Source of the DNA: Rhodocyclaceae bacterium
GTDB taxonomy: Bacteria; Pseudomonadota; Gammaproteobacteria; Burkholderiales; Rhodocyclaceae
Direction of reading: 5' to 3'
Length of the DNA stretch: 64,000 bases
Assembly: GCA_018883265.1 (NCBI GenBank)
Contig: VEQK01000003.1
Location: forward strand, 1-64,000
The number at the start of each line of letters is the position of its first letter. The first letter of the stretch is position 1. Of the stretch, positions 11,960 to 24,238 are shown piece after piece. Under the pieces are notes generated by a model. That model was not told the DNA's origin, did not search any database, and worked only from the letters and a program-made list of their open reading frames with translations. Made by a program: the position numbers and the translations under genes.

Positions 11960-12544
11960 ATGGGCGTACGCGAAAGCCGTATCCGATCCGATCGCTTTCA
12001 AGGGCGTAGCCGCGGCAGCCACTGGCACCCGCTCGGCAAAGCGCTCAGCCCGCCCACGCATCTGAGACCCTGGCTCACCGAACCGCGTTCGCTCACTGCA
12101 CGGCTGCAACGCTATTATGGCAAGGTCCATTTGCGCGTCATCGCACAGTCTTTAGGTGAACCTTATAACGACGAAGGTTCCGGTCATCTGCCACTCGCTA
12201 TCTGCCGGGCGGTGGTGTTGTCATCGGACGCAGGAAAACCGCTGGTTGTAGCGCACTCCATTTTGCCGGCTGTACCACGTGGACCGCTCTCAGTGGTGAT
12301 CCGCAAACTGGGGCGCCAGGCCCTGGGTTCCTTGCTGTTTACCCATCCGGGTTTTGTGCGTCGACAGCGTGAATGGGCATTCCTCGATGCGCGCCATCCA
12401 CTGTATCGCCTCACGAGTCAGCAAGACCCTTCAGTGCCGCAACGCCTCTGGGCTCGCCGCGCCGTGTACAGTCTTTCGCGCTATCCGCAGCAATCGGTTC
12501 AGGTGACCGAGGTCTTTTGCATACCACCGCATGAAGAAAATTGA
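11960..12544 (+). CDS. ubiC: Chorismate lyase
   Basis: UbiC converts chorismate to 4-hydroxybenzoate and pyruvate, the first committed step of ubiquinone synthesis. The 194 residues contain LRPWLTEPRSLTARL near the N-terminus, the Arg of AICRAVVL, the VVAHSILP strand, LGRQALGSLLF and the C-terminal catalytic Glu in QVTEVF. These match the family order and length, although overall similarity is moderate. No ubiA follows directly; the UbiA-family gene at 55914 is MenA-like. A ubiquinone-using respiratory chain is implied. Confidence 0.85.
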   Translation: MGVRESRIRSDRFQGRSRGSHWHPLGKALSPPTHLRPWLTEPRSLTARLQRYYGKVHLRVIAQSLGEPYNDEGSGHLPLAICRAVVLSSDAGKPLVVAHSILPAVPRGPLSVVIRKLGRQALGSLLFTHPGFVRRQREWAFLDARHPLYRLTSQQDPSVPQRLWARRAVYSLSRYPQQSVQVTEVFCIPPHEEN

Positions 12545-12626
12545 AACCGATGGCCGGAGTATTCCGTCGTTTATACTGAAATCCATTACCAAAACCTTTA
12601 ACCAGTCGTCCGGAGAGCGATAGAAC

Positions 12627-14087
12627 TTGAGCGGAACTCTTGCACTTTTGATTTCGTTGATCATCGCGATCGAAGTGGCGATCCCGGTGGGGACATACTT
12701 GCTCTTCAAGGGCCGTCACGACGATAAAACCCGATTGTGGTTCATTAGTGTGATTTGTGCGAGTTCATCGATTGTGCTCGTTTCCCTGCGCCCGTTTCTT
12801 CCAGAATACCTGTCGCATCAGATTCCCTGGATCTTCATGGTGGGCGGTTTTCTGCTGATGGTGGAAGCGATATCCCGTGAACTGCGACACGGTGGGTCAT
12901 GGAACGGCTACTGGCTGTTTTTTATCACCTGGATTGTATTGGTTAATATCATTTACATCCTGGATTTGTCGGCTTCTTTGGGTTTCGTTGCCTACAGCCT
13001 TTGTCTTGCGCTGATTTCCTTTATTTTGCTGGCGCAAATCTGGCGAATCAATAAAAAGCATCCCAGTAAAAGTCTGCGGATTCTCCAAATGGGCTTTCTG
13101 TTTTATTCGTTGCCCGCGTTGGCGCGTGTGGTCGCTTTTTTAACAACAGGCTCGGTCGAACAGCTTGATGTATTCAAGTTCAACCCGGTAACCAACGTGC
13201 TTGTCTTTACGTATGTACTGGCTGCCCTTTTTGTGCCCTTTGGCTATTGGGGCTTTACGCTGGAAAAGTCTGAGCGTGAGCGCGAACGGGCAGAGGCCGG
13301 AGAAGATAGGGCAACGCAGGAAGCTGATCGTTTCCGGAAGCTGGTTGAAGAGCGCGATCAATTGCTCGTGATGAATTCGCGCTTTGCTGCCCTCAGTGCT
13401 TTGTCGTCTTTTTCGGCGATGTTGATCCACGACATTACCCAGCCTTTGCAAACTTTGCAGCTCGGTCTGGAGCGTTTGCGTACCCGCCTGAAAAGAGGTG
13501 AGGGTGCCAATGAGGTTCTGTCGGATCTGGTTCGTCTGGAGCGGGTGTCGGATCGGGCCTCGGCGCTGGTTGATTCCTTGCGCAATATGATGCGTAGCGG
13601 CGAAAGTGTCGTGTCACCCGTGCATCTGCAGCCATTATTGGAGCGCATTGCTCTGATCCTGGGTAGCCCTGCGCTGCAAAAAAAAGTAACAATACAAACA
13701 GAATTCAGCGTGTCAGCCGGCTGCCAGGTGATGTGTGAACCAACGATGCTGCAGCGAATTGTATTTAACCTGGTATCTAACGCCATAACGCACTTTGAAC
13801 AGAATCCTGTGATGAACCCAAAGGTGGTGCTCCGGGTATGGCCGGAAATTCGAGGTGATCGGGAGGGGGTCCTGATTGAGGTTAGCGATAACGGCGCGGG
13901 TTTTCCGCCCGCCTTGCTGGAGCGGCTGGGACAGCCGTGGTCTTCCAGAAACGAAGGCAGCATGGGGTTGGCGCTGGTGCTGGTGAAGCAGGTGGCAACC
14001 CTCTGGGGCGGGGCGGTCGAAATGTCTAATCGAACAGACGGCCTGTCAGGTGCGGTCGTGCGTATCTGGCTTCGTCAAAGCGCATGA
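12627..14087 (+). CDS. Membrane sensor histidine kinase
   Basis: This 486-residue protein has about seven hydrophobic segments in residues 1-212, a charged coiled-coil linker (about 213-250), then a kinase core. The phospho-acceptor is probably His268 in MLIHDITQPLQTL. The N box is NLVSNAITHF, and EVSDNGAGFP with GSMGLALVLVKQ forms the ATP lid. The TTG at 12627 is used because GGAGAG lies about ten bases upstream and the frame opens directly into a membrane helix. The N-terminal sensor does not match a domain I recognise. The response regulator at 14193 is its likely partner. Confidence 0.87.
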   Translation: MSGTLALLISLIIAIEVAIPVGTYLLFKGRHDDKTRLWFISVICASSSIVLVSLRPFLPEYLSHQIPWIFMVGGFLLMVEAISRELRHGGSWNGYWLFFITWIVLVNIIYILDLSASLGFVAYSLCLALISFILLAQIWRINKKHPSKSLRILQMGFLFYSLPALARVVAFLTTGSVEQLDVFKFNPVTNVLVFTYVLAALFVPFGYWGFTLEKSERERERAEAGEDRATQEADRFRKLVEERDQLLVMNSRFAALSALSSFSAMLIHDITQPLQTLQLGLERLRTRLKRGEGANEVLSDLVRLERVSDRASALVDSLRNMMRSGESVVSPVHLQPLLERIALILGSPALQKKVTIQTEFSVSAGCQVMCEPTMLQRIVFNLVSNAITHFEQNPVMNPKVVLRVWPEIRGDREGVLIEVSDNGAGFPPALLERLGQPWSSRNEGSMGLALVLVKQVATLWGGAVEMSNRTDGLSGAVVRIWLRQSA

Positions 14088-14100
14088 CCCTAAAGACTTT

Positions 14101-14139
14101 ATGACTATTCCCAAATTTGGGAATAGTCATATTTTTTTT
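14101..14139. promoter_or_regulatory. Palindrome site 1: perfect 30-bp operator upstream of the response regulator, also terminator-like
   Basis: Bases 14101-14130 are a perfect inverted repeat whose core is TATTCCCAAATTTGGGAATA. A run of eight T follows, so the hairpin could also end the histidine kinase transcript. The same core recurs at 15839-15858 and 18358-18377. A -10-like TAAGAT at 14146-14151 begins 30.5 bases from the palindrome centre, placing the site over the -35 region of the response-regulator promoter. This fits an activator site; the binding protein is inferred, not shown. Confidence 0.8.
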
Positions 14140-14192
14140 ACGGGTTAAGATGCCGACATTGGAAATCACCCGTACGGCACCTGATCTGTTTC

Positions 14193-14825
14193 ATGCCTAA
14201 GTCGAAGAAGACCCAATCCCACGTCTATCTGATCGAAGACGATGCCGATCTGCGGCAGGAGTTAGTGTACAGCCTCGAGGGGGCCGGGTTGACAGTGATG
14301 CAGTTTGACACGGCGGAGTCTTTTCTGAAGACAGGCGTGACCCACTCGCCGTCGGTGATTGTCGCGGACATGGTATTGCCCGGGTTGTCGGGGCTCAAAC
14401 TGTTCGAATCGATCCGGGGGCAGGGCATCCAGACGCCATTGGTGTTTATCAGCGGTTATAGCGAACCCAACCAGATTATCGACGGCATGAAACTGGGTGC
14501 GGTTGATTTTCTGTGGAAACCCTTCAAATCAGATGCCTTGATCAAGGTGGTTGTGCAAGCGATGGTGCAGGATATGCAGCGTCACATGCAGGCTGCCAAC
14601 CTGAAGAATATCGAGCTGCGCTGGCATGCGCTGTCGGATCGTGAGCGCGAAGTCTGTCGCCTCATGCTCGCCGGTCGTGGAAATAAGGACATTGCCGAGG
14701 TGTTGCAGATTCAACCGGATACAGTCAATAAACATCGGATGAAGGTGTTGCAGAAGATGCAGGTAAACACCCGGCCGGAATTGATCGACCTGCTCAAAGG
14801 GTGTGAATCGCTCATCGGCGTTTGA
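14193..14825 (+). CDS. FixJ/LuxR-type response regulator
   Basis: This 210-residue protein has a receiver domain (about residues 10-125) with acidic pair EDD at 15-17, phospho-acceptor Asp59 in VADMVLPG and Lys109 in LWKPF. A LuxR-type helix-turn-helix follows (about 145-205) with LSDREREVCRLMLAGRGNKDIAEVL and DTVNKHRMKVLQKM. It follows the histidine kinase gene and is the likely partner. The perfect palindrome upstream suggests autoregulation, and it is the best candidate to bind all three copies of that site. Ligand and pathway are unknown. Confidence 0.92.
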   Translation: MPKSKKTQSHVYLIEDDADLRQELVYSLEGAGLTVMQFDTAESFLKTGVTHSPSVIVADMVLPGLSGLKLFESIRGQGIQTPLVFISGYSEPNQIIDGMKLGAVDFLWKPFKSDALIKVVVQAMVQDMQRHMQAANLKNIELRWHALSDREREVCRLMLAGRGNKDIAEVLQIQPDTVNKHRMKVLQKMQVNTRPELIDLLKGCESLIGV

Positions 14826-14838
14826 GCAGGCGTTTTGA

Positions 14839-15780
14839 TTACTCGCCGAGTTTCCTGATCTGCGGACCGATTAAGCGGGCGACCTGGCTACCAGAGACTA
14901 CGTAGGGGTTGAGGCTCACGTCTCCCTGGCTGCTGACCATTGAAACAGCCTTGGCGTTGCCAATCACCAGAGCTTGCAAATTACCGGGCTCCAGCGTGAG
15001 CAAGTCGCCATCTTTATAGGTTTTTTCCTGGCGGTTGCCATTGATGTCAACAATTTGCACCCAGCTACTGCCGGCAAATTGCAGACGGATGCTGCCTTCC
15101 GGGATATTGTTGGTCTTTTCAGCAGTCGGTTGAGCTGGGGTGGTAGTTGTGGCGGCTGCCGGCGGGGCGATGGTTGGCTTTTCGGGCTCTACCGGTGCCG
15201 TAGCGACGGGGTCTGGCGTGATTGTGGCCGCGGCTGCGGGCTTTTCCTGGAGCTTTGCTGCCTGATTGACACGGGCATTGGCGTTGTTCTTCGGGGTATC
15301 CATCATGCTTTGAATACCGATCCCGGCGAGTACGGTAGCGACTGCCGCCATGGCCCAGCGAGGCAAATGCCGCGTAGATTTTTGTGGGCTTGCCACAGCC
15401 ACTTCTCTATGGGCGTCTGTGTCACCCGGTGTCGCATCAGGTTGAGCTATTTCTGATTCTGTCGGGTTTGGGCCAGAGGGGGGTGCGATGATTTGAACGT
15501 CTTCCGCATTGGCATTAAACAAACGCTGCGATGGACGGTCGTTGAGCCCAAGAAACTGGGCGTACTTATCGGCCGACTGTGCGTACAGTTTCACGCCATA
15601 GAAGTAGGTGACGTCGCCTATTTCCAGACCCAGTACCTGATTTCTGGAGAGCAATAACTTGTCAGCAACATCCTGTGCGGAGAGTTTCTTATCCTGCCGG
15701 CCCGCACGAAACGCCCGCCCGATCTCGGCAGCCATGTCGAGATTGATGGTGCTGTGGATCTGGCCATCGACAAGTTTCAT
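14839..15780 (-). CDS. RodZ-like membrane helix-turn-helix protein
   Basis: This 313-residue protein resembles RodZ in layout. An N-terminal Xre/Cro-type helix-turn-helix (about residues 17-85, AQDVADKLLLSRNQVLGLEIGD) is followed by a linker and one membrane helix (about 141-158). An Ala/Pro/Thr-rich periplasmic stretch (about 165-230) leads to a DUF4115-like beta domain (GSIRLQFAGSSWVQIVDINGN onward). RodZ normally organises MreB, but here there are no cell-shape genes nearby. The promoter carries palindrome site 2, so it probably belongs to the response-regulator regulon. It may be a specialised paralogue rather than the true RodZ. Confidence 0.75.
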   Translation of the reverse strand: MKLVDGQIHSTINLDMAAEIGRAFRAGRQDKKLSAQDVADKLLLSRNQVLGLEIGDVTYFYGVKLYAQSADKYAQFLGLNDRPSQRLFNANAEDVQIIAPPSGPNPTESEIAQPDATPGDTDAHREVAVASPQKSTRHLPRWAMAAVATVLAGIGIQSMMDTPKNNANARVNQAAKLQEKPAAAATITPDPVATAPVEPEKPTIAPPAAATTTTPAQPTAEKTNNIPEGSIRLQFAGSSWVQIVDINGNRQEKTYKDGDLLTLEPGNLQALVIGNAKAVSMVSSQGDVSLNPYVVSGSQVARLIGPQIRKLGE

Positions 15781-15811
15781 GGTTCAATCGCAGTGGTTAG
15801 CTCTGGTTCGC

Positions 15812-15885
15812 ATAATAAATCTCTTTGATTTAATTAGATATTCCCAAATTCGGGAATACACAAAAGAATTCTGATTGGGTAAATT
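15812..15885. promoter_or_regulatory. Palindrome site 2 between divergent promoters
   Basis: Bases 15839-15858 carry TATTCCCAAATTCGGGAATA, matching site 1 at 19 of 20 positions. On each side a -10-like hexamer begins exactly 31.5 bases from the centre: TATTAT on the minus strand (15817 to 15812) for the RodZ-like gene, and TAAATT on the plus strand (15880-15885) for the winged-helix gene. Neither has a recognisable -35 box, which fits activator-dependent promoters. Confidence 0.75.
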
Positions 15886-15891
15886 AACTGC

Positions 15892-16194
15892 ATGAAATCG
15901 ATGCTCACCCAACTCTTGTTCGAACCGGTTCCGGCACCACCCCAGCGAGGGCGCTCAGTGCGTTTTGATGTTGATGAGCCCCAGATCATGGTGGCGACAG
16001 GCCCGCTCGATGAGCGCATCGCCACCTTTATGCGACTGCGTGGTTATCCGATGACGGCGCGAGAGATCTCCGCAGGGATTGGCAGCAACCCCTCGCAGGT
16101 GAACAAAGGGTTGCATACCTTGATTGGTCGAGGGGTGGTCGAAGCGGTCGAGATCCCGGGTAGCGTTAAGGAATACGTGTTGCTGATAGACTGA
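15892..16194 (+). CDS. Small winged-helix protein of unknown function
   Basis: This 100-residue protein is not one I recognise. Residues about 40-95 read as a winged-helix DNA-binding fold: MRLRGYPMTAREISAGIGSNPSQVNKGLHTLIGRGVVEAVE, with helices, a Ser/Asn-rich turn and a closing wing ending in EYVLLID. The first 38 residues are Pro- and Arg-rich and probably unstructured. The likely -10 ends only seven bases before the ATG, so the message may be leaderless. The stop abuts the stop of the alkylsulfatase-like gene with no gap. It may be an auxiliary regulator of this island. Confidence 0.7.
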   Translation: MKSMLTQLLFEPVPAPPQRGRSVRFDVDEPQIMVATGPLDERIATFMRLRGYPMTAREISAGIGSNPSQVNKGLHTLIGRGVVEAVEIPGSVKEYVLLID

Positions 16195-18300
16195 TTACTC
16201 CCCGGCGGTTGCCGCCGGTGGGATCACCTCTAGCGGGTCTTTGGTCACGACCTGGGCTGTCGGTTTGCCGACCCGGGTGCCGGGCACCAGCTCAAAGTCC
16301 GGTGTGAATGTCGTCATCACGCTCTTGAGCTGATCGAACTTGCTCTTGTCGCCATCAAATCGTGCTTTGCCCTGAGCGGCCAGCTGTTCAAAGGTGGTCT
16401 GGCCCCCCATCACGCCATTAAGATCGCTGCGGTTGACAGTGATGGTGAGATCGGGGCTCTTGGCCTGTTCGCCTTTGATATTGGTCAGCGCGCTGTTGCT
16501 CATTTCGATGACAAACTTTTCACCATTGTCCGGCGTGTCCAGGTTGATCACGAACTTCATGCCGGCCGCTTTGATGCTGTCCATGCTGATACCCAGCGAG
16601 TTGAGCCACAGCTCGGTGGTCATCGCCTTGATCATATCCGGACCGGTGGACTTGGGCGCAGAACCCTTTGGGATGCCGTGACGCAGTTCATAGGCGGCGC
16701 CCAGGAAGCTATTGCGCACGCTCGGGCTTTCCTTCTGATAACCAATCTGTTCGTACACGTCGGCGAGTAGATCCTTGGCTTGCGTATTATTGGGTTGGGC
16801 ATAGACCAGCTTGTTCAGGATCTCCATCGCCTGACGGTATTTGCCCTGCTGATAAAGCTGCTTCCCCTTGGCGATGATCTTGGCCGAACCGCCCATCATG
16901 TCCACATAGAGCGGCGCGGAATCGCGCGGTGACAGCGGGATCAGATTAGCCGGGTTGGCATCCCAGTAACCCAGATAGCGGTTGATGACGGCGCGGCTGT
17001 TGTGTTCTTCCGAGCCGTGGTAGCTATGCGCCGCCCACTGATTCTGCAGGCTCTTCGGTTGCTTGTAGACGTTGTGGACTTCGTTGATGGTGACCCCTTC
17101 ATTGGCGAGGTGCATGACTTCGTTGTGCAGGTGGGCGTAGGTGTCGCGCTGGGTGCGCATCACTTCCTGGATCCGACCGTTACCCCAGCGCGGCCAGCTA
17201 TGAGAGGCAAATATGACTTCGGCATTGTTACCATAGCGATACAGGGCATTATTGATGTGCTTGGACCAGGCCAGCGAATCGCGCACCAGTGCGCCGCGCA
17301 GGGTGTAGATGTTGTGAATGGTGGCGGTAATGTTTTCTGCTGCCCAGAACGCGTTTAATTGCGGGAACCAGGTGTTCATTTCCGACGGTGCCTCGGTACC
17401 GGGCGTGTTCTGGAACTCCATCTTCACGCCATCCACCGTCATGGTTTCGAAGTCCTTGCTGACGTAGCGGGTGGGTTCTATTAGCCCCAGGTTGCCCGCC
17501 GCTGTGTTTTTACCGATGGACTGGTCAACATGGCCGAAGGGGCTGCGTGGCAGCAGCACGCCATACTGAAAGTACATACGGCGGTTCATGGCATTGCCGG
17601 CATAGACATTCTCGGCGACGGCATGATCCATGAAGCCTGACGGGGCGATGATTTGCACTTTGCCACTCTTGACGTCGGCCTCATCAACTACGCCGCGCAC
17701 ACCCCCATAGTGGTCTGCGTGGGAGTGGGAGTAGACGACAGCAACGACTGGGCGCTCACCGAGTTTTTCGTTCACGAGTTTGAGCGCGGCGCGGGCCGTT
17801 TCCTTGGCGGTCAGCGGGTCGAACACGATCCAGCCGGTATCCCCTTTGATGAAGCTGATGTTGGCCAGGTCAAAGCCGCGCACCTGGTAGATTTTGCCAG
17901 GCACCACTTCATAGAGGCCGTAGCCCATGTTCAGGATGGCCTGCCGTTGCAGCGAAGGGTGAACGCTGTCGAAGTCTTTGCCTTGCAGCAGAAACTCGTA
18001 GCTACCCATATCCCAGGCCACGTTGCCGGCATCGGCCATGATCTGTTTGTAGTCTGGCGCGGCGATAAAGCCTTTCATCGATTCTTCGAAGTCGCGCTTG
18101 TCTTCGAAGGGCAGGGTTTTGCGGCGTTCGTTTTGCAGGTCAACCGTGTATGTCGAGGGCATTTTTCCCTTAGGGTCAAAGTGCTTGCCCTGCATGGCAC
18201 CCGGATCGGCAAGCACCGCACCGCCACCGGCGGCAAGAGCGCCTGAGCTGGCCGCAACGAGCAGTGGGATCAGAATGACAGAGGGTGTTTTTTTGTACAT
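16195..18300 (-). CDS. Alkylsulfatase-like metallo-beta-lactamase-fold hydrolase, exported
   Basis: This 701-residue protein resembles SdsA1-type alkylsulfatases, which cleave sulfate from alkyl sulfate esters. It has a signal peptide (residues 1-24), the dinuclear zinc motif HSHADHYGG at 192-200, the downstream GTEAPSEMN and FASHSWPRWG zinc and substrate motifs, a dimerisation domain, and a C-terminal SCP2-like lipid-binding domain (from about residue 585). The ATG at 18300 is chosen since it starts the signal peptide; the frame runs further upstream through the operator. Palindrome site 3 lies 58 bases upstream. The true substrate could be another hydrophobic sulfate ester. Confidence 0.87.
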   Translation of the reverse strand: MYKKTPSVILIPLLVAASSGALAAGGGAVLADPGAMQGKHFDPKGKMPSTYTVDLQNERRKTLPFEDKRDFEESMKGFIAAPDYKQIMADAGNVAWDMGSYEFLLQGKDFDSVHPSLQRQAILNMGYGLYEVVPGKIYQVRGFDLANISFIKGDTGWIVFDPLTAKETARAALKLVNEKLGERPVVAVVYSHSHADHYGGVRGVVDEADVKSGKVQIIAPSGFMDHAVAENVYAGNAMNRRMYFQYGVLLPRSPFGHVDQSIGKNTAAGNLGLIEPTRYVSKDFETMTVDGVKMEFQNTPGTEAPSEMNTWFPQLNAFWAAENITATIHNIYTLRGALVRDSLAWSKHINNALYRYGNNAEVIFASHSWPRWGNGRIQEVMRTQRDTYAHLHNEVMHLANEGVTINEVHNVYKQPKSLQNQWAAHSYHGSEEHNSRAVINRYLGYWDANPANLIPLSPRDSAPLYVDMMGGSAKIIAKGKQLYQQGKYRQAMEILNKLVYAQPNNTQAKDLLADVYEQIGYQKESPSVRNSFLGAAYELRHGIPKGSAPKSTGPDMIKAMTTELWLNSLGISMDSIKAAGMKFVINLDTPDNGEKFVIEMSNSALTNIKGEQAKSPDLTITVNRSDLNGVMGGQTTFEQLAAQGKARFDGDKSKFDQLKSVMTTFTPDFELVPGTRVGKPTAQVVTKDPLEVIPPAATAGE

Positions 18301-18330
18301 GATGAATTCCGTTTGGGCGTGATATAACCC

Positions 18331-18404
18331 TGTATACCTTAGGCGCATTTGCATGAACATTCCCGAATCTGGGAATAGATTTTCAGCGAAGTGCCCTGTA
18401 GTGT
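18331..18404. promoter_or_regulatory. Palindrome site 3 between divergent promoters
   Basis: Bases 18358-18377 read CATTCCCGAATCTGGGAATA, an imperfect copy of sites 1 and 2. On the minus strand TATACA (18336 to 18331) starts 31.5 bases from the centre and would serve the alkylsulfatase-like gene. On the plus strand TAGTGT (18399-18404) lies at the same distance and would serve the patatin lipoprotein gene; it is a weaker -10. Confidence 0.72.
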
Positions 18405-18462
18405 TAAGCCGGTTGAGTTCACTTCGACGAAGCCGATATTAATTTTGAGCAGCTTAGTCTTT

Positions 18463-19716
18463 ATGCGACCTATATACCGTTTGATTTCAGTTCTTGTTTT
18501 GGCGCTGTTGGTATCCGCCTGCGGCGCATTGCAGCGTAAAAACGCGGTTCCTGAAAACCAGCACGCGCAGGCGCAGATTGAAGCATCACCCGGCGTGCGT
18601 TACATGATTGCCTCGCCCGAAGGCGTGGCGGCTATGGTGAATGATTTGCGCGAGTCGCAGCAGCGTCTTGGAGTCAAGCGCCTTAAGGGCACGGGTAACT
18701 ATCTGTCCATTTCCGGCGGTGGCGATAATGGCGCCTTTGGTGCAGGTCTGCTAGTGGGCTGGACCGCGCGGGGTGACCGGCCGGACTTTGTCCTGGTGAC
18801 CGGCGTCAGTACTGGCGCGTTGATCGCACCGTTTGCTTATCTGGGCAAGGACTACGACCATGTGTTGACGCACGTGTATACCGAAGTGACCCCGGAGATG
18901 ATTTTCAGAAAGCGTGGGCTGTTAGCCGCAATGACGGAAGATGGTATTGCCGACACTACGCCGTTGTACGAGCTAATCTCGAAATACATCGATGCCGATT
19001 TCATGAAGAAGGTGGCCGATGTGTATCAGAATCAGGGGCGTTGGTTGCTGGTCGGTACAACGAATGTGGATGCCGGTGTGCCGGTGGTCTGGAACATGGG
19101 CAAGATTGCCTCGATCGGTACGCCCGAGGCGTTGAACCTGTTTCGCCGGGTGATGTTGGCCTCGGCATCGATCCCCGGCGCATTTCCACCGGTGATGTTT
19201 GACGCGGTGCTTAATGGTGAGTCATTCCACGAGATGCACGTCGATGGTGGCGCCAGTATGCAGGTCTTCCTATATCCCAGCGCGGCCGCGACCAAGGCCA
19301 AGGAAGAACATGTGGTGCGGCGTAAGGATCTGCAGGCCTACATCATCCGCAATTCACGACTGGATAACGGCTGGCAACAGATCGAACGTAAAACGATGAG
19401 CATCGTCGGCCGCTCGATCTCGCAACTGATTCAGGCGCAAGGCATTGGCGATATCTATCGCATTTACCAAACGACGCAACGTGACAAGGTGGGGTTCAAT
19501 CTGGCGTTTATTGGCCCGGACTTCAATGCACCGCATAAGGAGGAGTTCGACACCGAGTACATGCGTGCCTTGTACAAGTACGCCTATGACCGCGCAGTGG
19601 TCGGTTATCCCTGGTCGAAGCAACCGCCGGGGTTGGTGCATACCATTGATGAGGATGTGCGGGCGACAAGCAATGGCGCCAGCAAACCCGGTGGCGCCTC
19701 AAACCAGACGCGCTAA
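18463..19716 (+). CDS. Patatin-like phospholipase lipoprotein
   Basis: This 417-residue protein has a lipoprotein signal ending VSAC, with Cys20 as the lipidation site, so it is anchored in the cell envelope. The patatin fold shows the oxyanion motif SGGGDNGAFGAG at about residues 84-95, the nucleophile elbow GVSTG (Ser116) and the dyad Asp in VDGGAS. Patatins hydrolyse acyl chains of lipids. The ATG at 18463 is preferred over an earlier in-frame start because it opens the signal peptide. It is divergent from the alkylsulfatase-like gene and shares palindrome site 3. Confidence 0.87.
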   Translation: MRPIYRLISVLVLALLVSACGALQRKNAVPENQHAQAQIEASPGVRYMIASPEGVAAMVNDLRESQQRLGVKRLKGTGNYLSISGGGDNGAFGAGLLVGWTARGDRPDFVLVTGVSTGALIAPFAYLGKDYDHVLTHVYTEVTPEMIFRKRGLLAAMTEDGIADTTPLYELISKYIDADFMKKVADVYQNQGRWLLVGTTNVDAGVPVVWNMGKIASIGTPEALNLFRRVMLASASIPGAFPPVMFDAVLNGESFHEMHVDGGASMQVFLYPSAAATKAKEEHVVRRKDLQAYIIRNSRLDNGWQQIERKTMSIVGRSISQLIQAQGIGDIYRIYQTTQRDKVGFNLAFIGPDFNAPHKEEFDTEYMRALYKYAYDRAVVGYPWSKQPPGLVHTIDEDVRATSNGASKPGGASNQTR

Positions 19717-19770
19717 CTCAAATACGCTGCGATGACTGCAACCGAGAAGTCGTTCGCAATAGGTATCAAT

Positions 19771-19800
19771 AAAAACCCGGCAAGCTGCCGGGTTTTTATT
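19771..19800. terminator. Bidirectional terminator between the patatin gene and sodB
   Basis: AAAAACCCGGCA and TGCCGGGTTTTT form a nearly perfect hairpin with poly-A and poly-T flanks, able to stop transcription from both convergent genes. Confidence 0.9.
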
Positions 19801-19817
19801 GGTTTGATTCCGGAGGG

Positions 19818-20402
19818 TTAAGCGAAGTTGGCTTCGGCAAATTTCCAGTTGGCGAGTTTGTCGAGGAAGGTTTCGACAAACTTCGGGCGCAGGTTGCGGT
19901 AATCGATGTAGTAAGCGTGTTCCCACACGTCAACCGTCAGCAGGGCTTTGTCGCCGGTGGTCAGCGGGGTGCCGGCGGCGCCCATGTTGACGATGTCGAC
20001 GCTGCCGTCGGCCTTCTTGACCAGCCAGGTCCAGCCCGAACCGAAGTTGCCGACGGCCGAAGTCTGGAAGGCTTTCTTGAACTCGTCGAACGAGCCCCAT
20101 TTTTTGTTGATGGCATCGGCCAGCGCGCCGGTCGGAGCGCCACCGCCGTTGGGCGACAGGCAGTTCCAGAAGAAGGTATGGTTCCAAACCTGGGCGGCAT
20201 TGTTATAGATACCGCCGGCGGGTGCCTTCTTGACGATCTCTTCCAGGCTCAGCTTTTCGTATTCGGTGCCCGGAACCAGATTGTTCAGGTTGGTCACATA
20301 AGCCTGATGGTGCTTGGCGTAGTGGTAGTCGAAGGTTTCTTCCGACATGTGCGGGGCGAGGGCGTTCTTGGCGAACGGCAGTGCGGGCAATTCAAAAGCC
20401 AT
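19818..20402 (-). CDS. sodB: Iron superoxide dismutase
   Basis: SodB converts superoxide to oxygen and peroxide in the cytoplasm. The 194 residues have all four metal ligands: His in YHYAKHHQAYV, His in WNHTFFWNCL, and Asp and His in DVWEHAYYIDY. The FFWNCLSPNGGG segment is typical of the iron rather than the manganese type. ATG 20402 has a GGAG ribosome site; the frame stays open upstream but is not used. It is transcribed away from xseA-side sequence and ends at a shared terminator. Confidence 0.95.
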   Translation of the reverse strand: MAFELPALPFAKNALAPHMSEETFDYHYAKHHQAYVTNLNNLVPGTEYEKLSLEEIVKKAPAGGIYNNAAQVWNHTFFWNCLSPNGGGAPTGALADAINKKWGSFDEFKKAFQTSAVGNFGSGWTWLVKKADGSVDIVNMGAAGTPLTTGDKALLTVDVWEHAYYIDYRNLRPKFVETFLDKLANWKFAEANFA

Positions 20403-23195: not shown

Positions 23196-24238
23196 TTCTC
23201 AGCCCCAAAGACATTGAGGCCAGCTGGTATGGCCGTGTCCGGCTGGGGGCTCTGCAATGTGGACTGCTGACGGTGCTTTCCTGGCTGTACGCCGTGGTGA
23301 CCGCCATTCGTCGGCGATTCTATGGCTGGGGATTCCTCAGTAAGACCCGTCTGCCGGTACCGGTGGTCGTGGTTGGCAATCTGATCGTGGGAGGCGCCGG
23401 TAAAACCCCCCTCACTCGTGCGCTGGCGGGGCAGTTACGTGATGCCGGCTGGCGGCCGGGCATCATTAGCCGTGGCTATGGCCGGCAGGCCCCGGGGGTG
23501 CGTGCCGTTGGTATCGGGGATAGCCCGCGCCATGTGGGAGATGAACCTTTGCTTTATGCGGCAGATGGTTTCCCCGTGGTGGTGGGGGAAAAGCGTGTTG
23601 ATGCCGCCAGAACGTTGCTGGCAGCGAACCCCTCAGTCGATGTGCTTATTGCCGATGATGGTTTGCAGCACTATGCGCTGGATCGGGATATCGAGATTGT
23701 CGTCTTTGATCGCCGAGGATTTGGCAACGGCCGGTTGTTGCCCGCCGGGCCCTTGCGTGAAGGGGCCGCACGCCTGTGCGACCCGCGCGTCAAAGCGCTG
23801 GTCTGGCAGGGGGGGCTGATCCGGGCACCGGAATGCCCGGGCACTGATGTGCCCTCCTACGCCATGACGCTGGCGACGAGCGAGGTCTATGCCATCAACG
23901 ACCGGGATCGTCGGCAATCGCTGGCCTCGTTTGCCGGGCAGACTGTGCATGCAGTGGCCGGCATCGGGCATCCCGAGCGTTTTTTCCAGATGTTGCGCGA
24001 TCAGGGTATCCGGGTTCATGAATTGCCATTCCCAGATCATCACGACTTCCAGAGGACAGATATCCCGATTTCATCGGTAGCTGTACTGATGACGGAGAAG
24101 GATGCAGTAAAATGCCACGAGTTTTCGGCCGGTCGCGACAACTGGTTTGTCGTACCGGTCATCGCGCAGGTTGCACCGACTTTGCCATTGGATGAATGGT
24201 TGAAGCGTGCCGCAGGCGCCCATGATGGAGCGTGCTGA
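23192..24238 (+). CDS. lpxK: Tetraacyldisaccharide 4'-kinase
   Basis: LpxK phosphorylates the 4-prime position of the lipid A disaccharide precursor at the inner membrane. The 348 residues begin with an amphipathic and hydrophobic N-terminus, then the Walker A loop [18 protein letters not shown] near residue 60, the ISRGYGR motif, [19 protein letters not shown], and GIGHPERFF. All are conserved LpxK blocks and the length is normal. The start overlaps exbD, and trm112 follows within two bases. Confidence 0.95.

Follow-up and report, generated by a model that had tools for sequence, protein, structure and literature searches.

In the analysed window, 64,000 nucleotides of contig VEQK01000003.1 from a Rhodocyclaceae bacterium, a 20-bp palindrome of the form TATTCCC-N6-GGGAATA occurs three times within a block of six genes, and five -10-like hexamers facing five of these genes stand at a common distance from the palindrome centres. 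No further copy with one mismatch or fewer exists in the genome. The block encodes a histidine kinase and a FixJ/NarL-type response regulator, and we consider it probable, judging from sequence, that this local regulator binds the palindromes as a class II-type activator of the five promoters of the cassette.

The window was scanned for the pattern with 14 fixed bases, and mismatches were counted over the fixed bases. The three sites are:

14106-14125: site 1, TATTCCCAAATTTGGGAATA, the 20-bp operator core within a perfect inverted repeat at 14100-14131
15839-15858: site 2, TATTCCCAAATTCGGGAATA, all 14 of 14 fixed bases exact, common to two divergent promoters
18358-18377: site 3, CATTCCCGAATCTGGGAATA, one mismatch, spacer GAATCT, common to two divergent promoters

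All three are real and lie where the initial annotation had put them. That annotation described site 1 as a perfect 30-bp palindrome at 14101-14130; it is indeed perfect, but the repeat extends over 32 bp, with a 14-pair stem and a 4-base loop in the hairpin scan. From its consensus with an RAATTY spacer the fixed arms stand, whereas the spacer of site 3 does not fit. The window holds six pattern matches at three or fewer mismatches against 1.73 expected, a count of at least six being reached in 3 of 100 shuffles; sites 1 to 3 have 0, 0, and 1 mismatches, and the remaining three matches have 3 each. The genome-wide search that the initial annotation had proposed found the motif not scattered: across the whole genome (G000, 1.86 Mb), copies with at most one mismatch occur at sites 1 to 3 only, all inside 4.3 kb. 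Three further places, on C12, C41, and C56, have two mismatches, and a reversed control pattern has two places at two mismatches or fewer. The composition expectation for at most one mismatch in 1.86 Mb, with a GC content of 0.56 assumed, is 0.22, and the probability of at least three copies is about 0.0015 before the clustering of all three within 4.3 kb is counted. One of the weaker sites of the genome (C12:11815), intergenic before a fumarase-like gene, has no -10 hexamer at the common offset. The three sites are intergenic, as had been claimed, given our predicted start codons for the sulfatase (ATG 18300) and patatin (ATG 18463) genes; of the longest mechanical open reading frames, the one on the minus strand (18360) would enter site 3 and the one on the plus strand (18391) starts 14 bases off it.

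Flanks were aligned on the palindrome centres, and -10 likeness was scored at offsets 13-70 in a two-base window. The -10 frequency tables were approximate and were applied alike to real and control data. The alignment returned the hexamers at the positions initially reported:

14146-14151, plus strand: TAAGAT, regulator gene, 30.5 bases from the centre of site 1
15812-15817, minus strand: TATTAT, RodZ-like gene, 31.5 from the centre of site 2
15880-15885, plus strand: TAAATT, small gene, 31.5 from the centre of site 2
18331-18336, minus strand: TATACA, sulfatase gene, 31.5 from the centre of site 3
18399-18404, plus strand: TAGTGT (weak), patatin gene, 31.5 from the centre of site 3

Jointly, the five gene-facing flanks peaked at offset 31-32 with a summed score of 26.8. 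Overlapping windows reached 18.6 and 12.8, and the best clearly separate value was 12.5 at offset 15. None of 2000 dinucleotide shuffles attained the peak, and none of 2000 did so when four or all six flanks were used; the same held for 5000 control sets, each made up of five 90-base pieces taken from the window itself at a GC content of at most 0.48 (maximum 23.4). Promoter by promoter, the fractions of such control segments (n = 2319) scoring as well were 0.0116, 0.0052, 0.0013, 0.031, and 0.106. The sixth flank, on the kinase-facing side of site 1, served as an internal control and has ATGCGC, which is no -10 hexamer, at the common offset. The proposal of five candidate promoters at one fixed distance holds overall, although the fifth, with the TAGTGT ahead of the patatin gene, is weak. 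At spacings 15-19, the -35 hexamers closest to consensus (TAGTCA, TACACA, ATATCT, TTCATG, and TAGATT) agree with TTGACA at 4, 4, 2, 3, and 3 of 6 bases, as raw match counts. Because the -10 distance is fixed and no -35 is better than 4/6, the candidate promoters have class II activator geometry by sequence, with the site over the -35 position and centres at about -43, in line with the initial annotation.

The block reads, from left to right, kinase (rightward), site 1, regulator (rightward), RodZ-like gene (leftward), site 2, small gene (rightward), sulfatase (leftward), site 3, and patatin (rightward). All block genes except the kinase gene start at a palindrome, and an upstream scan found no palindrome ahead of the kinase gene. 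The six genes are:

12627-14087, plus strand: sensor histidine kinase (PF02518, 7.1e-18; His268; HATPase_c)
14193-14825, plus strand: FixJ/NarL-type response regulator (PF00072, 3.2e-22; PF00196, 3e-16), the proposed binder and autoregulator
14839-15780, minus strand: RodZ-like membrane protein (HTH_25, one transmembrane helix, RodZ_C)
15892-16194, plus strand: 100-amino-acid putative winged-helix protein, a gene supported by codon statistics and the rival binder
16195-18300, minus strand: SdsA1-type alkylsulfatase with signal peptide, start codon predicted
18463-19716, plus strand: patatin-like lipoprotein (PF01734, 3.1e-18), start placed by its lipoprotein signal

In all six, the annotated frame is the one preferred by codon statistics, for which eight neighbouring genes served as the training set. 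The N-terminal half of the kinase has seven hydropathy-predicted membrane helices, an eighth peak lying in the catalytic domain, and a motif scan found its catalytic boxes complete (His268, N box, and G boxes). The protein from 14839 is the product of the second RodZ_C gene of the genome, and the RodZ_C match is stronger at the other locus (G000:C56). It scores 27.6 bits against a cut-off of 208 for the RodZ equivalog NF008109, with the domains present, and from its sequence we call it RodZ-like only. The sulfatase matches SdsA1 (2cfu) at 5.8e-218, with a query two codons longer (16195-18306), and has the MBL, dimerisation, and C-terminal SCP2-like domains of an SdsA1-type alkylsulfatase. Its start at 18300 was chosen on the signal peptide and on an 86% identical orthologue in a congener, which begins MLKKTTS where the block protein begins MYKKTPS. 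The enzyme is a relative of the SdsA1 enzymes of sodium dodecyl sulfate (SDS) degradation. The sdsA genes are under a LysR-type regulator, whereas here a two-component system is carried on the same block.

The regulator has a receiver domain and a GerE/LuxR helix-turn-helix (HTH) domain, both above Pfam cut-offs, with Asp59 as phospho-acceptor and Lys109, and its match to FixJ (5xso) is 3.1e-35. The histidine kinase gene adjoins its gene, as in NarL/FixJ response regulator pairs. With 151.7 bits it falls below the cut-off of 255 for the FixJ equivalog (NCBIfam NF006900), and on this score we classify it as FixJ/NarL-type and not as a FixJ orthologue. The region of its recognition helix reads TVNKHR. 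Among 40 relatives of the regulator the same region is TVEVHR in 32, a close TVE variant in five, and TVQ in three; the recognition helix of NarL differs from that of the block regulator as well. In about 330 bp upstream of these 40 relatives the TATTCCC-N6-GGGAATA palindrome was found in none, and of the palindromes there with 7-base arms and an N6 spacer (6-7 arm positions paired) three have CCC or GGG at the corresponding arm positions. A private site, absent upstream of the relatives, is as expected if the changed helix TVNKHR reads it.

Searches with the regulator, the kinase, and the 100-amino-acid protein returned no close counterpart in the genomes sampled. For the regulator, the best other match in 60 relatives was at 8e-38 (36% identity), and 335 other genomes of the family gave 12 with E at or below 1e-37, the best at 38% (the nine best candidates per genome being scored); no relative in the sampled genomes exceeded about 39% identity. 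A scan of genome contigs with the regulator gave one irrelevant receiver-domain match. The matches listed for the full-length kinase in the 60 relatives cover the kinase core (20-35% identity). Across 368 further genomes of the class, its sensor half had two weak matches, both with internal stops and neither convincing. The 100-amino-acid protein had one match of 30% among 398 further genomes of the order and one of 38% over 50 residues in 353 other genomes of the phylum, these samples overlapping. On plasmids, neither the kinase sensor half nor the 100-amino-acid protein found a match. The literature search retrieved no publication joining response regulator, alkyl sulfatase, patatin, and two-component, and pieces of the palindrome used as text queries retrieved unrelated publications only.

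The proposed arrangement resembles several known systems. The lux box is a 20-bp dyad centred at -42.5 and bound by a GerE-type HTH, but LuxR is ligand-dependent and not a response regulator, unlike the block regulator. The regulator also matches structure 1yio, which we take to be StyR, at 3.3e-29. StyS/StyR of Pseudomonas differs from the block pair in sensor type and in site sequence. StyR activates from STY2 at about -40 (PMC2442086), a position comparable to that found here. Its target is a catabolic operon of styrene use. The 18-20 bp dyad with GerE spacing fits NarL and UvrY sites, a likeness of sequence geometry only. For NarL, an engineered 7-2-7 site is TACCCCTAAAGGGGTA and the site at yeaR lies at -38 to -47 (PMC4549865), while at ogt it is centred at -44.5, on the opposite face from the C-terminal domain of the RNA polymerase alpha subunit (PMC7419079). 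For this last reason we use class II as a label of position, not of mechanism. NarX/NarL of Escherichia coli shares with the block the receiver plus GerE regulator, the CCC-N6-GGG dyad, and a single site near -42.5 (yeaR) or -44.5 (ogt); its half-site is TACCC against TATTCCC here, and its sensor and targets are unrelated. Repression by NarL is described as well, at frdA, from sites near the start (PMC4549865). UvrY recognises an 18-bp inverted repeat, TGTAAG-N6-CTTACA (PMC4682653). BarA-UvrY/SirA likewise has a FixJ-family regulator and an N6 dyad spacing, a similarity of geometry only, but it binds far upstream, with IHF at csrB, and its targets are small RNAs, unlike the block sites.

In the mechanism we propose, the seven-helix membrane histidine kinase would phosphorylate the regulator, and a dimer of the latter would then bind the 20-bp palindrome. 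From there, with its centre at about -43, it would replace the -35 element and recruit RNA polymerase. Binding at site 1 would give positive autoregulation of the regulator gene. The symmetric site 2 would serve the two divergent promoters of the RodZ-like and 100-amino-acid proteins, and the symmetric site 3 those of the alkylsulfatase and the patatin lipoprotein. The cassette would thereby bring along both sensor and regulator, together with all strong copies of the regulator's site that the genome has. We infer both the identity of the binder and activation rather than repression. Judging by the targets, we guess that the signal is perhaps an alkyl-sulfate surfactant or a stress on envelope lipids. 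More tentative, and in our view rather doubtful, is the extended proposal of a transferable, self-contained regulon in which an orphan seven-helix kinase and a regulator with a private recognition helix drive all other cassette genes through three palindromes, two of which act in both directions, with site 1, as terminator and operator in one, coupling regulator binding to kinase-regulator read-through.

Several observations weigh against activation by the local regulator. Two other HTH-like proteins, the 100-amino-acid protein and the RodZ-like protein with its HTH_25 domain, are encoded from site 2, and an operator at -43 could repress instead. Among the promoters, the patatin TAGTGT is not significant alone (10.6% of AT-rich controls are as good) and better-scoring hexamers lie further down, at offsets 68-73; at site 1 a TATTTT at offset 15 scores slightly higher than TAAGAT. 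Two of the five -35 regions still match TTGACA at 4/6. A generic sigma-70 scan of 12400-20400 yielded 3 pairs where shuffles yielded 4.6, and no proposed promoter was among the 3; the -10 of the small gene would start its transcript at or beside the annotated ATG 15892, making it leaderless or implying a later ATG. No orthologous kinase/regulator pair was found in the sampled genomes, which leaves the sites with no phylogenetic footprint. A single palindrome of this form is moreover not very rare: 10 of 60 other relatives have a copy at one mismatch or fewer, whereas the reversed control has one in 2 of 61 genomes; a narrower pattern at two or fewer mismatches gave 7 of 335 other family genomes against 6 of 336. 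No other genome in either scan (60 and 335 others) has three sites. In one genome of another genus of the family (G021), two palindromes of the same form lie 31 bp apart (G021:C42:4838-4888; L011/L016).

The main rival for the binder is the 100-amino-acid protein, which might bind the palindromes and, in that case, would probably repress all five promoters, its own included, while the kinase/regulator pair acts elsewhere or via other sites; we think this unlikely. Its gene starts at site 2, so autoregulation suits it too, codon statistics indicate a real gene, and its distribution is about as narrow as that of the sites. Its winged-helix matches are weak, however, and all lie below Pfam thresholds (TrmB 0.0019, IclR 0.003, LexA 0.0054), and its structure model is of low confidence (predicted local distance difference test 49.6, element order H-H-H-E-E). 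Weak -35 hexamers are less expected under repressor control, and the sites lie at about -43, not over the -10. Because the CCC-N6-GGG dyad and the position near -43 match NarL, with UvrY alike in geometry only and StyR in position only, we favour the regulator. Still less probable is that site 1 is merely a rho-independent terminator of the kinase gene, leaving sites 2 and 3 as the only operators. Its perfect inverted repeat is followed by T8 (14132-14139) and begins 12 bases behind the kinase stop codon, and RNA 14088-14142 folds at -22.9 kcal/mol (z -8.0); a terminator, and not an operator, accounts for the outer arms and T8, which also counts against our interpretation. The folds at sites 2 and 3 are less stable (-8.5, z -3.3; -10.5, z -2.4) and have no such T tracts, and the generic terminator scan gave 7 sites overall against 9.6 in shuffles, with 14 pairs at site 1 only. 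But sites 2 and 3, each between divergent genes, repeat the 20-bp core, TAAGAT stands at the common offset, and the two roles are compatible. Given the stable 14-pair hairpin with T8 and the recurrence of the core, site 1 is probably both terminator and operator; its terminator-like nature is a detail absent from the initial annotation. Finally, the palindromes could be mobile-repeat remnants (miniature inverted-repeat transposable elements, MITEs, or REP-like repeats) of no regulatory role. The block does look acquired, but with three copies at one mismatch or fewer, likeness over about 20 bp only, and a fixed distance to the -10 elements, we rejected this reading as highly improbable.

The block occupies 7.3 kb between ubiC and sodB (interval 12545-19817) and is absent there in all four congeners examined. 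This interval is variable in the genus: three of the four congeners have a lipid A acyltransferase-like gene in it (L111 4883-5815, L112 7560-8474, L113 5537-6400; Pfam assignment was run for one of these and for ubiC), and in G001 it measures only about 100 bp (L114 4974-5076). Four acyltransferase homologues occur at other places in the window genome. The block is probably a species-specific, acquired cassette, on a comparison of presence and absence only, since codon usage fits all six genes and the GC content is close to that of neighbouring genes, with a slight dip at the kinase. The 86% sulfatase orthologue lies elsewhere in its genome (G004), on a 4.8-kb contig with no palindrome and no kinase or regulator; it stands near the contig end (L110 383-4770), beside putative lipoprotein and type IV pilin-like genes. 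Patatin paralogues occur in the window genome at C6, C58, and C21 (L115, L116, and L117), with 67, 59, and 48% identity, and the stretches fetched around them contain no palindrome match with fewer than three mismatches. All four congeners have DNA-level matches to the patatin gene. The patatin and sodB genes are convergent, and the inverted repeat between them (19767-19801), flanked by an A tract and a T tract, is probably a common bidirectional terminator. The Rfam scan of 12400-20400 matched no family; ARAGORN called a 93-base tRNA-Asn at 23704-23796 inside the lpxK frame, probably a false positive. A defence island was also considered for the block and rejected, the matches being only generic HTH and phospholipase-effector ones.

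The type of switch proposed here is already known, and its gene content is new. If the more tentative proposal of a transferable, self-contained regulon is correct, it would couple the sensing of surfactants or envelope lipids to three products: an SDS hydrolase, a lipase of lipoprotein type, and a shape protein resembling RodZ. With the regulator, its site, the five promoters, and their spacing all in one 7-kb cassette, the prediction is unusually clean and testable, and the cassette offers a reporter system for the seven-helix sensor. It would also exemplify a regulator that occurs, along with the entire regulon predicted for it, in one species of a genus.

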